From positions 187,405 to 251,404 of the forward strand of contig CACVBU010000520.1 of assembly GCA_902728285.1 (NCBI GenBank): DNA of 64,000 nt. The letters run 5' to 3'. How positions within the stretch are numbered: position 1 is the first letter of the stretch; each line of letters starts with the position of its first letter. Below the pieces are notes generated by a model. It ran no database searches. It was not told where the DNA came from and worked only from the letters and a program-made list of their open reading frames with translations. Shown piece by piece: positions 59,204 to 64,000 of this stretch. The position numbers were made by a program, and so were the translations under genes. The DNA is from Clytia hemisphaerica. Its lineage: Eukaryota; Cnidaria; Hydrozoa; Leptothecata; Clytiidae.

Positions 59204-61180
59204 ATCTTCCTTGAGAGTGGTTTGTGTACATGGTAGCAAAACAAACTTCCAATTTACATGGAATAGATTTTAAACGTAAGACGGGTTCAAGAAACGAGCT
59301 TGTCGGAACAGGTTGACGAGATAAAGCTTTTAATGCTTTAAAGATTGAAACATAAAAAATAATCAGGAATAATTAATTGATTTGATTATTGATTGATTTA
59401 ATTACTGATTGATTGATTGATTGATTCTCTATTGCTACTTTGCCTAATAAACAATAGTCAAGAGGATACTGTGGATAAAATTTATCAAAAAGTTCTGCGC
59501 CATCTTAAATAGGGCGAAATAGAAACCAATCCTAGCTAAGGCCCGGACTCCACTCGCTTACGCTTTGATTGTACTTCTCAAGCAAAATCTTTTATGTTGT
59601 TGGTCAAAAGAAAAATAAAGATATGCCATTGTGGTCCATTCAGACGTACAGTCGAGAAAAGTTGAAATGCGCCTAATTTTTTTAAAAGTGCATAGTACTT
59701 TTTCATGATGCAATCTTTTCTCCAAACTAAAAGCTGATTGAATCCATTAAGATGATCGCAGCGCAGACAATGAAGAGATGTGCCTTCAGGAAGCTAGACT
59801 TTTTGAGTTTATAGCTATATACTTTCACTTTATGGTGTTTCTGTATGACTGTCTGTGTGCCTAGTCTAACCACCGTTAAATGCCTTCGGGAAGGTCCCTC
59901 CTAACTTGGAAAGCCAGAATTGGAGCTATTTCACCAAACTACTGGAGCGCAAGTTATTACGTAGGCTATCACAACTGAAAAAGTTGAATGTATGCGCCTA
60001 TACAAACTTTTTTCAGGTTTTCCAAATAGATTTACCACACTGAACAAACAGTGAAAACACTCTAAGTGAGGTAAATCTATTTTGAAGACCAAAAAAAAAG
60101 TTTGTTTACATCGATTCACATTCAATTTTGGATTCATATGCTACATTCTACTTTTTTGTACTTTGCCGGCATCTTGTTTTACAGAGTTAAGAAAGATATT
60201 CCCGAGTTACGACCATATAATGGTCTTTAAAGCTTAAGAAGCTCTATAAACAATAAAGGTAGTTATTAATAAAATAACAGACAGACAATATAAATTACAG
60301 TTTGATAAGTTTGAACAAAAATATCAACAAAATGTACATTTGAAAACTTGAGCAAATTTCTTTAAAGATTCCCGAAAAAGAATTGAAATCATTGCTGAAA
60401 TGAACTTCTGACTAAATTACAGTATTTATTCAGTTTTAAAGACAAGAAACAAAATTAGACATACAAAACACACTTTTTTTCCATTCAATGAATCGAATCA
60501 GCTCATCATCATAACCAGTCTGCCATTTTGTTTGTTTTGATTTGCAAAAGTAATATTGTAATCCTTGTTATGGTGTAATTATATACTTTTTCTATAATTT
60601 GCATTTATAACACTCGCTTCAGCTTTTCAATCCTAAATCAAAACTAATGAAATGCAATATATAATAATGGTAATAGAATATAACGTAATATGAAAATGTG
60701 TATAACATTTACCGCTGTATAATTTACCGCCATATTTTTGCGGAACACTTAATTGGCCGGAACATACAATACGAACAAACGCGCGCGCAAAGATTCGAGA
60801 TTCCTGTCCAATATCCTTGCGTGAAGCTATGAAGGCCTCCTCACTCGCTACGCTCGTTGCGGGGGCAAAAACGTGTTTGTCAATGTGGAGAGCACAAATT
60901 TTATAGCTGCCTGTAGCCAATTGATTTATTCAAAGTTTGAAAAATTTTGTACAATTTCGGGGATTTTGGTAATCTGACTGTACGAGCATTATCAATCCGC
61001 AGCCTGGGGGGTGGAGACAAAACGCAGAACGGCGGAATGCCGGAATGCCGGAACCGGAATAGCTGTTCCGGCCGGAATAGCTATTCCGCGGAATATGATT
61101 TTTTTTTATATTTTTAATTTCGCTTAGCGAAAGTATTACGATCAGCGTTCGTGGGTCGCGGGTCGGAAAATTTTTTTGCG
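59204..61180. other. Gene-poor stretch before the Helitron
   Basis: No frame longer than about 95 codons and none resembling a protein family. A cluster of CCGGAAT / GGAATAGCTNTTCCG words at 61031-61092 forms local dyads. Otherwise featureless. Confidence 0.4.
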
Positions 61181-61190
61181 AAATCGAAAG

Positions 61191-61266
61191 TAAAGTATCG
61201 GTGGACTAACTCTCTTAAATATTTTGTAATTGTAAAGTATCGGTGGACTAACTCTCTTAAATATTT
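61191..61266 (+). repeat. Tandem pair, TAAAGTATCGGTGGACTAAC unit
   Basis: Two ~35-bp copies (61191-61225 and 61232-61266) are identical through TAACTCTCTTAAATATTT. It may belong to the 5' region of the Helitron-type element. Confidence 0.7.
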
Positions 61267-61689
61267 AGTGATTTTTTAATATGGGGCGCCATTATGTGAA
61301 AATAATATTGTAAGAACGGCGCCTTAAAAGCGATAGAAAGCAAAGGTAAAAGCAGTTTTAACTGGTTTCTAACTGTCTGAAGAAGCCCGAAGAGAAGTCC
61401 AAGTTGTAAGTACTTTGTATCTTTTTGTCTGTAGGAAAATAGCATTCATAGCTGTGAGGTTATTTTCTGTGTTTTAGCTATATTTTGCTTCTCAGATCCA
61501 TCCAGTTTAATTATTGGACTGGTTCTGTTTTAGAAGTTGTTTTTTTTTATTTTTGCCCTTCAGATTTATCTGAATCTGATTGAGGCAGCTTTTTTTTCGC
61601 CCTTCAGATTTATGCACTACGGGCCACTGAATCTGATTGAGGCACCCCGTGGCCAGGGCAGGTTGTCATCCTGTGCCTGCGACCGTACA

Positions 61690-61834
61690 AGCTGCATTGT
61701 CAGCTCTTACAAACCAAAGCTGCATTGTCAGCTCGATTACAAACCAAAGCTGCGCTGTCAGCTCTTACAAGTCAACTCAAAGCTGCGCTGTCAGCTCTTA
61801 CAAACCAAAGCTGCGCTGTCAGCTCTTACAAATA
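61690..61834 (+). repeat. Five tandem 28-32-bp units upstream of the Helitron ORF
   Basis: Each unit reads AGCTGC(A/G)(T/C)TGTCAGCTC followed by TTACAAACCAA, with small variations. The array ends 60 bases before the first ATG at 61894. Immediately upstream, a CCCTTCAGATTTAT...CTGAATCTGATTGAGGCA segment is also duplicated (61557-61588 and 61600-61644). Position suggests a promoter or 5' UTR array. Confidence 0.75.
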
Positions 61835-61893
61835 TCTAATTGCTGTATATAAGTTCATAATAATTTTGTAGTGCTAATTTTTAAAGTGTAAAA

Positions 61894-62793
61894 ATGATAT
61901 CCATTGAGTCATATCGTTCACGTATAGGATGTTTTGCTTTTACAGCTCAGAGAAATGTTAAAGGTATTTCTAAATCTATTGTTATTGGTTCAGAACTTTC
62001 CAATGATGCTTTTTCTAAACTATTGAGACCAGTTCGCTTTGTAGCACTTTTAACAATCCTTTTTTTTGCAATTCCAAAATCATACGAGATAACGTTTTAT
62101 GAAACACCACTGGATTTTTTGCATCTTTCAAAAAATGGTATATTTGTTAGATATCCCAATGTGACGCATAATTTAGGAGATCCAAATCTTACTTTTCTTA
62201 AAGTTAATTACACACTTTTATTATCAGGAGATATAGAACTCAATCCAGGTCCAAACACTGTAGAAATTAAAAGTGTGCAAGGGTCTTTTCATCAGGGAAA
62301 TTTGGAAAGGTTTGGTGAGACTGCAGGCATACAATGTTCGTCAAATTGTTTTTTTGCTATTTGTTATGCGCAACTTAGAAAATTATCATTGTGGAAGACT
62401 CATGATTTGGATTACGTTTTACATCAAGGTGATCTGAATTTCAAAAAACTTGGCATCACTGGGCAGTCCCCTTATATTGAAGAGTTTTCAAAAACAATTG
62501 AAATAGGAAAAGGAAATAGTACTTGTACACTAGATTTCAATATTTTTGAAGGTTACTTTGTGACCGGAGATAATATTTCAGTAAATTTTATCAGTGAAGA
62601 AATCCTTATGCAGCACTCTGGTGCAGTTTTAGTAATTTCTGGTAATTGTTTAGGTGTGATGCACTACAACAAAAAATATTTTCTTTTTGATTCACACAGT
62701 AGAGACTCAACAGGACGTCAAGTTCCTGGAGATGTTGGCAAGTCAGTACTTTTGGAATTTCACCATGTAAATGAAATCAAGCAGCACACATAA
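61894..62793 (+). CDS. Helitron ORF N-terminus: hydrophobic leader, 2A ribosome-skip motif, C76-like cysteine protease
   Basis: 299 codons from ATG 61894. Residues 48-64 are a hydrophobic segment (VRFVALLTILFFAIP). Residues 113-120 read DIELNPGP, the complete D(V/I)ExNPGP 2A consensus, at nucleotides 62230-62253; in known 2A peptides the ribosome skips the last Gly-Pro bond, so a ~119-residue leader would be released. Residues about 130-290 resemble the ubiquitin-type cysteine protease domain found in transposon proteins and related to peptidase C76. HQGNLERFGETAGIQC gives the probable nucleophile Cys148 with Gln147 (oxyanion hole), and FLFDSHSR (Asp266, His268) the D-x-H pair. Stop TAA at 62791 follows a CACACA run; the next frame continues with sensible residues, so this is a frameshift and not a natural end. 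Confidence 0.7.
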   Translation: MISIESYRSRIGCFAFTAQRNVKGISKSIVIGSELSNDAFSKLLRPVRFVALLTILFFAIPKSYEITFYETPLDFLHLSKNGIFVRYPNVTHNLGDPNLTFLKVNYTLLLSGDIELNPGPNTVEIKSVQGSFHQGNLERFGETAGIQCSSNCFFAICYAQLRKLSLWKTHDLDYVLHQGDLNFKKLGITGQSPYIEEFSKTIEIGKGNSTCTLDFNIFEGYFVTGDNISVNFISEEILMQHSGAVLVISGNCLGVMHYNKKYFLFDSHSRDSTGRQVPGDVGKSVLLEFHHVNEIKQHT

Positions 62794-62799
62794 GATCTG

Positions 62800-63251
62800 A
62801 ATACAACGCAAATTTATTTAACATTATATATCTGAAAACTGCCTTTCAAGAAGTAGAAAATACTAAAAATGTTATTTTGAGGGAAGTATCACGCCGTCAA
62901 AAAAATGCTTCACACAAAAGATCATATGAACAAATAAAAGGTACTGAAAAGCATGAAAAGAAAAATAAAGTTAAGAGACAATTCCGCAAACAAAATAAAG
63001 GTTCTGAAAAACATGAACAAGAAAAAGAAAAAAAACGTCTTTCATGGCAACAAATGAAAGGGTCTGAAAAACATAAAGAAAGAACAGAAAAGAAACGTTT
63101 ATCATATCAACAAAATAAAGGGTCAGAAAAACATGAACAGGAAAAAGAAAAGAGACGCGCAAGGCTTACAAAGACAAAAAAAACAAACCAGGGAAAAGAG
63201 TTGAAAACTTTAAACAGAAAAAACAAGAGGGCCCTTCCTACATCTGTGTAA
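62800..63251 (+). pseudogene. Helitron coding region, basic 20-residue tandem repeats
   Basis: Continuation in a second frame (in-frame text is readable from about 62780; the first ATG-like codon is at 62877). Four tandem 60-bp units (62928-63167) encode variants of KQNKGSEKHEQEKEKKRLSW. Lys/Glu/His-rich repeats at this place are common in Helitron proteins and may bind nucleic acid. The frame ends at 63251 in an A-rich run, and the correct reading passes to the next frame just before GPSYICVMC. Confidence 0.6.
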
Positions 63252-64000
63252 TGTGTAACCGCTGTATGTTTAAAAAATCTGTGTTTGGTTTTGATGAACA
63301 AAAGTTCTCATTGATCAACTTTGAAGAAATAGAAAATTTTAATCCTGTAACCTCGTTTGATGGTAATTTCTACGTATGCACAACCTGTCATAGAAAATTA
63401 ATGAAGGGAGAAATCCCATGCCAGTCTGTTACTAACAAGCTTCAAATTTTTGATCTCCCAGATAATCTAAATGATATACGAAAACTGGAAAGAATTTTAG
63501 TAGCTCAAAGAATTTTATTTTCTAAAGTCATGATCATGCGTAAAGGTGAATTCCCCAAATTGCAAGGTGCAATATGCAATGTTCCTATTGAAACACCAGG
63601 TGTATGTAAAGTACTTCCTAGAGGAAGTGATAGTAGTGGTGTAATAAATGTTGAATTAAAAAGAAAAAATATGCTACAAAAACCCTGTTATTTCGCAGCA
63701 AGTAAGACGACAAAAAGTTTTTGAAACTTTGGACTTTTTAGTGAATAATAATCCTTTGTATCATGATATAAATATTGATATGTCAATAATTGACCAAATG
63801 AATAATGATGAATATGTTGAAAGGGTTTTATCAAATAATGATTCCATATCAAACGCTTCTTCCAATGATATAAGATTTGTTGATGATACAACAGTTACCT
63901 TAATCAAGCCTTTTGAAGAGCAATTAGAGAATGAATTTGATTCTGATGATCCACTCAGTGCGTATCGGACACCAACATGTGAAACAGTCATTGTATCAGA
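63225..64000 (+). pseudogene. Helitron coding region, DUF6570-like domain, broken by a frameshift
   Basis: The frame containing GPSYICVMCNRCMFKKSV (from about 63226) continues to 63724 with VCTTCHRKLMKGEIPCQS, KLQIFDLPDNLNDIRKLER, LPRGSDSSGVINVELKRK. CxxC pairs (ICVMC, VCTTC) and the KLxxGxIPxxxxxNKL pattern are typical of the domain preceding the Helitron Rep region. A stop at 63722 follows an ACAAAAAC run. One frame over, the text goes on (KVFETLDFLVNNNPLYHDIN...) and stays open to the window end. Confidence 0.65.

Follow-up and report, generated by a model that had tools for sequence, protein, structure and literature searches.

A conserved leader and 2A motif ahead of the deubiquitinase of Helentron transposons in Clytia hemisphaerica, with signs of exchange between elements

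Analysis of a 64,000-nucleotide stretch of the Clytia hemisphaerica genome (hereafter the window) revealed an intact open reading frame of 299 aa (61894..62793; this and all further features lie on the + strand), in which a leader peptide and a 2A ribosome-skipping motif precede a VTD (herpes-tegument-like) deubiquitinase domain, and which belongs to a Helentron. We consider it reasonably probable, taking the three parts jointly, that the 2A motif cuts the Helentron frame during translation, that the leader has a selected role of its own, and that leader and 2A motif are swapped between elements.

2A peptides are rare in cells. Because the DNA transposon described here has many copies, falling into several families, evolution itself can show what a 2A motif is used for: whatever lies ahead of it is kept and, apparently, traded as a unit, which offers a testable reason for 2A in mobile elements, namely that parts can be expressed independently and swapped freely, and draws attention to an uncharacterised small peptide kept by different transposon classes. 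The copies also add natural, diverse 2A sequences. No report of a 2A motif in Helitrons was found in the literature searched, the sources being available in part, and the eukaryotic 2A survey of Rao 2025 (cited in PMC12846837) may list cases; 2A in Helentrons may be new in this limited sense.

The leader, 2A motif and deubiquitinase of the Helentron

A first-pass annotation of the window had read a complete 2A motif, DIELNPGP, at residues 113-120, and its presence in the intact 299-aa frame was confirmed. The core (62230-62253) agrees with the 2A/StopGo consensus D[V/I]ExNPGP, follows directly on FLKVNYTLLLSG with a Leu-rich run ahead of the core, and is part of a 2A region, FLKVNYTLLLSGDIELNPGP (62194..62253), with a predicted skip between Gly119 and Pro120. 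The leader, predicted to be a separate product that includes the 2A motif up to Gly119 (61894..62250), is homologous in families 1-4 (defined below). It contains the motif YRxxIGxF (residues 7-14, 61912..61935), which is common to some non-LTR retrotransposon leaders and occurs a single time, inside the leader, in the 127,996 six-frame residues of the window, as well as a hydrophobic segment (residues 47-61, 62032..62076) at the same position in the 8 Helentron leaders tested. A chance or misread 2A motif was ruled out by two controls: a degenerate DNA pattern encoding D[IV]ExNPGP matches the window once and none of 100 shuffles, and that for GD[IV]ExNPGP has 349 exact matches in the 417-Mb genome, while its reversed form has 0. 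The DNA pattern for bare NPGP is not enriched genome-wide (2,495 matches vs 4,030 reversed), so that the evidence rests on the longer motif.

The protease domain behind the 2A motif had been annotated as C76-like, which we take to be the MEROPS family number of the VTD domain, with readable Cys and D-x-H residues, and here family match and triad positions agree. Pfam Herpes_teg_N (PF04843) matches residues 131-273 with E 2e-8 (62284..62712), and the best match among solved structures is PDB 8add (E 1.1e-4 with the single sequence, 1.8e-16 with a 4-row profile), whose alignment sets Cys148 (codon 62335..62337), Asp266 and His268 (Asp266-x-His268, 62689..62697) on the Cys/Asp-x-His triad. Although 8add carries the database title 'ATP-dependent DNA helicase', we infer that it is the zebrafish Helitron VTD whose crystal structure is described in PMC9741609, in the portion of that paper available to us, together with mutational tests of a triad of this kind. 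With both family and triad in agreement, the domain is a predicted deubiquitinase that would cleave ubiquitin chains.

The element begins with TTAATTTCGCTTAGCGAAAG, a 5' end common to 8 copies (the window and 7 loci) with differing flanks ahead of it, and reaches the end of the window (61114..64000), whose last base adjoins a run of N (assembly gap). One of the flanks, at L011, holds a repeat with 79% likeness to window sequence lying farther upstream. Within the element, the 5' non-coding DNA contains about 5 copies of a 28-bp tandem repeat (61689..61832), and the VTD domain is followed by 60-bp repeats encoding a basic repeat of ~20 aa (62929..63157) and, in a different frame of this broken copy, by a Pfam DUF6570 domain (PF20209, 63404..63682). 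Three frame changes lie between the VTD end and the window end, and the window copy therefore probably makes no full protein; the window also ends before the Rep and PIF1 helicase region. Beyond the window, the genome (417 Mb, 951 contigs) holds at least 155 matches to the 299-aa protein, and among the matches listed 13 places lie in open frames of >2,000 aa, one of which (C774) crosses a run of N.

Three of the long frames, of 2,180, 2,200 and 2,289 aa, were read through. All three carry, above Pfam cut-offs, VTD (E 1.6e-8 to 1.7e-6), DUF6570, Helitron_like_N (PF14214, E 1.4e-27 to 2.3e-35) and PIF1 (PF05970, E 2.1e-29 to 7.3e-33), together with a weak C-terminal Exo_endo_phos match (E 1.2e-4, 1.2e-4 and 0.0079, all below the curated 24.5 bits). 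Intact copies run leader-2A-VTD-DUF6570-Rep-helicase-endonuclease in one frame of ~2,200 aa. The proposed order of leader, 2A and protease thus recurs in other genome copies, and the loss of NPGP in intact copies, which the first-pass annotation had named as the result that would speak against it, was not seen in these three frames. Its assignment to a Helitron-type element was borne out and can be made more exact: by the C-terminal endonuclease, itself a weak match, we class the element with the Helentrons as PMC4067079 describes them in its available text. Across >2 kb of common 3' sequence the 3' end of the element was not reached. As side observations, the number of basic 20-aa repeats after the VTD domain differs between the near-identical L040 and L041 (2,180 vs 2,200 aa), and a short palindromic repeat, CCGGAATAGCTATTCCGG, lies at 61054-61088, shortly before the element begins. 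For leader and 2A motif, a viral origin was considered and rejected: a 4-row-profile scan of viral contigs with two leader/2A peptide patterns returned 55 matches, and tblastn relatives numbered 0.

The copies were sorted into families. Family 1 is that of the window, with subfamilies 1, 1b, 1c and 1d set by the leader; family 2 is exemplified by L043; family 3 comprises L047, L048, L049 and L052 (contigs C133, C696, C834 and C794); family 4 comprises L059, L060, L063, L064 and L071, plus L077 by its leader alone, the frame stopping after the 2A motif; and a USP family comprises L081 (C65), L067 and L082 (C37). Including the 2A motif, the leader measures about 119 residues in families 1-3 (116-120 across aligned rows), whereas in family 4 the hydrophobic segment (residues 47-61) runs straight into the 2A motif and 48 residues are absent. 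Family 3 retains leader and 2A motif despite loss of the VTD catalytic triad, Cys148 being replaced by Ser in all 4 copies read and Asp266 and His268 by Asn and Leu in all 3 copies with the frame open there (L049 aligned). Pfam found no VTD domain in family 3 at E 0.1, and BLASTP identified the domain as homologous to that of the window (E 2e-26, 30% identity); one copy, on C133, sits in a 2,261-aa frame, of which the first part was read.

In the USP family the 2A motif is followed by a USP-type ubiquitin C-terminal hydrolase domain (PF00443, E 8.6e-27). In L081 this domain is followed by a stop, beyond which DUF6570 (E 1.7e-12) and Helitron_like_N (E 7.9e-7) lie still in frame, and L082 has an open frame of 1,000 residues that spans both the USP and the Rep-side portion. 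USP and VTD classes seem to fill the same role behind the Helentron 2A motif, which suggests that two enzyme classes supplied the N-terminal deubiquitinase at this position. A separate case is L050 (C55), a family-2-like VTD in a 284-aa frame that has neither leader nor 2A motif upstream; it may be a truncated copy or a host-used gene.

Published Helentrons offer two comparisons, both drawn from excerpts of the respective papers. VTD-carrying Helentrons, DrT1 and DrT2, have been reported from zebrafish and other animals (PMC9741609), and they have in common with the present elements the herpes-tegument-like deubiquitinase, the C-terminal AP endonuclease and the same catalytic Cys and Asp-x-His; in contrast, a leader and a 2A motif precede the VTD domain here, one family has a dead VTD, and no 2A is mentioned in the part of PMC9741609 at hand. 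Helentrons carrying OTU are also published, with the OTU described as additional ORFs (PMC4067079), and resemble ours in bearing a deubiquitinase-type cysteine protease, but VTD takes the place of OTU here and the accessible text of PMC4067079 makes no mention of 2A.

Proposed skipping and the destination of the leader

A 2A peptide interacts with the exit tunnel, and the ribosome releases the upstream peptide and continues (PMC12846837, PMC4981915, both available in part). In the Helentron, the ribosome would release the 119-residue leader at Gly119 and continue from Pro120, giving a deubiquitinase-Rep-helicase-endonuclease protein that lacks the hydrophobic leader and, once freed of it, could reach the nucleus. 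The leader would then be a peptide with its own selected role rather than a mere linker, and because the 2A motif would part leader and enzyme at the ribosome, leader plus 2A would be swappable without having to fit the protein that follows. We infer skipping itself, the destination and action of the leader, and the target of the deubiquitinase.

As to the destination, the leader had been annotated as membrane-type. A hydrophobic stretch is indeed present, with a Kyte-Doolittle value of 2.27 over 15 residues at residues 47-61 of the window leader, but this value was reached in 45 of 500 shuffles of the leader, and hydropathy alone therefore does not establish a membrane leader. Across 6 leaders of families 1-3, the segment does not rise above shuffles (40-200 of 500 as high in a 15-residue window), while two family-4 leaders stand out more (4 and 23 of 500 as high, same window) and 3 of the 4 retrotransposon leaders tested fail to beat shuffles at 15 residues. 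A membrane-type leader is plausible, and membrane binding is put forward as a proposal, since the Helentron segment, though constant in place, beats shuffles only in the two family-4 leaders tested.

The hydrophobic stretch also lends itself to another reading, in which skipping is incomplete and the unskipped leader acts as a signal sequence that sends some of the deubiquitinase into the secretory pathway. The precedent comes from sea-urchin NLR proteins, in which, according to the portion of PMC4981915 available, a hydrophobic 2A leader serves as a signal sequence whenever the skip does not occur, as observed with reporters in HeLa and plant cells. These leaders likewise combine an N-terminal 2A with a hydrophobic stretch, and family-4 leaders, in which this stretch meets the 2A motif (e.g. 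ALYIFIMLLRSGDVEHNPGP), end much like the tested sea-urchin sequence, whose tail we obtained by our own translation of a primer printed in PMC4981915; they differ in that the sea-urchin leaders have 26 residues and belong to host immune genes, whereas those described here belong to a DNA transposon, measure about 71-119 residues and begin with the YRxxIGxF head. Leaders of families 1-3 have 1-3 sequons each behind the segment (vs 0.5-0.8 in shuffles), which would fit such dual targeting as well, although one of these sequons belongs to the conserved N-Y/N-T of the 2A region. Given that, in addition, the segment in families 1-3 is no more hydrophobic than shuffles and the downstream product is a DNA transposition machine without evident use in the secretory pathway, we regard this possibility as unlikely, if still deserving attention, and retain skipping with a separately acting leader as the preferred reading.

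Selection on the leader and its relatives in non-LTR retrotransposons

The case for a role of the leader itself begins with its conservation. In pairs among families 1-3, leader plus 2A shows a pN/pS of about 0.3-0.4, YRxxIGxF is exact in all 34 Helentron leaders, and 10 of the first 14 residues, ~100 residues away from the 2A motif, are invariant in a 4-row alignment with two nearly identical rows. This pN/pS and the invariant first residues show selection acting on the leader itself.

Related leaders were met outside the Helentrons. From the first 100 listed GD[IV]ExNPGP sites, 18 were fetched, mostly with spellings not read before. Helentron leaders accounted for five (L063, L064 and L071 with a VTD start, L077 as a leader alone, and the decayed L074) and a USP Helentron for one; eight carried other leaders, and the remaining four (L065, L066, L072 and L078) showed a leader of the form MG[VI]SL(x)QYRACIGxFN, followed by a hydrophobic stretch and a 2A motif. 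Pfam detected an endonuclease in L066 and L078 and none in L065, the piece of L072 being too short. Two long frames with such a leader, L083 and L084 (1,164 and 1,153 aa), contain Exo_endo_phos and RVT_1 (E 1.8e-30 and 3.4e-28), and on these domains are classified as non-LTR retrotransposons. YRxxIGxF is exact in 5 of the 6 retrotransposon leaders read, L083 having YRACVGNF with Val for Ile. Sorted by spelling, with the classes standing for the loci read and hence a rough guide, the first 100 listed sites comprise 44 of VTD Helentrons, 2 of USP Helentrons, 16 of retrotransposons with a YRACIGxF-type leader and 13 others, besides 25 not read. Among the eight fetched sites with other leaders, Pfam (E up to 0.01) gave an endonuclease in 3 of 7 scanned (L068, L075 and L076), only L075 being over the cut-off. 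Four loci (L068, L069, L070 and L076) have 2A-bearing frames with N-termini that look like signal peptides by eye, and some of these continue with weak matches to a PHD-type zinc finger and an endonuclease.

The resemblance between the two sets of leaders was assessed with the 2A motif removed. A profile built on residues 1-22 of 29 distinct leaders from Helentrons scored 4 retrotransposon leaders at 24.7-12.4 bits, compared with 9.4 bits for the best of 20,000 retrotransposon-leader shuffles, and a profile-profile comparison of 6 family-4 with 6 retrotransposon leaders aligned 17 columns at 92% probability (E 5e-7), while the best of 100 column-shuffled controls reached 31% and the next 2%. 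The reverse profile, built from retrotransposon heads, was weaker: it found all 29 distinct Helentron leaders, of which only 3 outscored the top one of 20,000 shuffles. When one retrotransposon leader, here including its 2A motif, was searched against the genome, leaders of family-4 Helentrons were hit with E between 8e-4 and 0.02. We judge the leader heads of Helentrons and retrotransposons to be homologous, though a convergent need for the same leader head in both transposon classes may also account for the likeness. APE-type non-LTR retrotransposons have already been reported to carry 2A (Odon 2013, cited in PMC12846837, which was available in part); our elements resemble these in having a 2A motif within a transposon frame, and some retrotransposons here carry the related N-terminal leader motif, but non-LTR retroelements use endonuclease and reverse transcriptase whereas Helentrons are rolling-circle elements.

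Tentatively, and with a confidence that stops a little short of even, we go one step further and suggest that leader plus 2A is a mobile protein module that two unrelated transposon classes of this genome, Helentrons and non-LTR retrotransposons, have in common, in which the 2A motif would serve as a joint at which enzymes are freely exchanged (active VTD, dead VTD, endonuclease-reverse transcriptase) and the leader would have a common role, perhaps at membranes, that helps both.

The recurrence of YRxxIGxF in retrotransposon leaders also bears on the idea that the leader is functionless in itself and is mere upstream context for the 2A motif, skipping serving to give the deubiquitinase a clean N-terminus. 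2A activity does require upstream residues (PMC12846837, in the part available), and the leader of the USP-type Helentrons lacks YRxxIGxF ahead of its 2A motif, as judged by eye. However, context for skipping would not readily explain invariant residues so far from the 2A motif, nor their recurrence in another transposon class, nor the pN/pS of the leader, and we consider it quite improbable; a leader with its own selected role remains our preferred reading.

Probable exchange between families and conservation of the 2A motif

Evidence that the leader and the 2A motif move between Helentron families comes from silent-site divergence, calculated per region as pS after Nei-Gojobori with intervals from 500 codon resamples. 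Between families 1 and 2, pS was 0.40 [0.29-0.52] for leader plus 2A (120 codons), 0.75 [0.64-0.86] for VTD (176 codons) and 0.73 [0.70-0.76] for the rest of the frame (1,856 codons). The corresponding values between families 1 and 3 were 0.39 [0.28-0.50], 0.65 [0.53-0.76] and 0.60 [0.46-0.75]; the third is based on 115 codons, and its interval overlaps that of leader plus 2A. Between 1c and 2 they were 0.48 [0.38-0.59], 0.65 [0.52-0.77] and 0.69 [0.62-0.75]. The pairs 1b-2 (0.58, 0.76 and 0.71) and 2-3 (0.46, 0.66 and 0.61) point in the same direction with overlapping intervals. Within family 1 the order of the regions differs, such that no single history fits all parts: 1 vs 1b gave 0.59 for leader plus 2A, 0.53 for VTD and 0.22 [0.17-0.27] for the rest (490 codons of it), 1 vs 1c gave 0.46, 0.60 and 0.20 (0.48, 0.60 and 0.42 with a second 1c copy), and 1 vs 1d gave 0.49, 0.50 and 0.71 (127 codons for the rest). 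For the leader alone, pS of 1-1b exceeds that of 1-2 by 0.19 (95% 0.05-0.34), while VTD identity is 74% between 1 and 1b and 37% between 1 and 2. Since leader and VTD differ more silently than the following part in 1 vs 1b and 1 vs 1c, a second exchange border may lie after VTD. Topology tests did not reject a single tree (AU p 0.47, 0.19 and 0.12), and it is the silent-site distances that carry the case for exchange.

Low silent divergence of the leader could in principle reflect constraint at the nucleotide level, such as RNA structure or an overlapping signal, in place of exchange, and this would suit a leader placed at the transcript's 5' end, a common site of signals. Yet the silent sites of the leader are not slow as such, because between 1 and 1b they diverge more than the rest compared (0.59 vs 0.22), and we attach still less credence to constraint than to a leader serving as mere context. 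Exchange is the reading followed here.

The 2A motif itself changes freely at silent sites. In the 56 loci examined, 6 fetched by the 2A pattern and 50 by similarity to leader and protease, the core or a near form is present in 54 and in 19 DNA spellings. It is kept in 48 of the 50 similarity-fetched loci, 47 with the full form and one (the decayed L053) with Lys for Glu, and the two loci without it, L050 and L051, are VTD-only matches. For the 21 residues around the 2A motif, families 1 and 2 differ by a pS of 0.51 and a pN of 0.02. Kept in so many loci and spellings, the motif is therefore selected as protein, and that it is a relic without skipping, the leader staying fused, is hardly credible, given that the families conserve D-x-E-x-N-P-G-P as protein while their silent sites vary freely, and given the 349 genome matches against 0 in the reversed control.

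The borders of the exchanged part were examined at the DNA level with one copy per family or subfamily, in the 9 between-family pairs that the four subfamilies of family 1 form with families 2 and 3 and these two with each other. In 8 of these pairs the best match begins at the ATG (-2 to +1), the exception beginning at -68. Its end falls no more than 5 nt from the last 2A codon (nt 360) in 6 pairs; in the other 3 it runs past the 2A motif, to 392, 528 and 539 nt. Pairs 1c-2 and 1d-2 have a second, separate match behind the first. Because divergence is fast in non-coding DNA, the 5' border is uninformative by itself; what does inform is the 3' border at the 2A motif, taken together with the step in silent divergence. 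From these comparisons, leader plus 2A seems to be an exchangeable cassette that was traded between Helentron families near silent saturation elsewhere. As a separate observation, pair 2-3 gave several short repeat matches upstream of the ATG, suggesting that short repeats are located there too.
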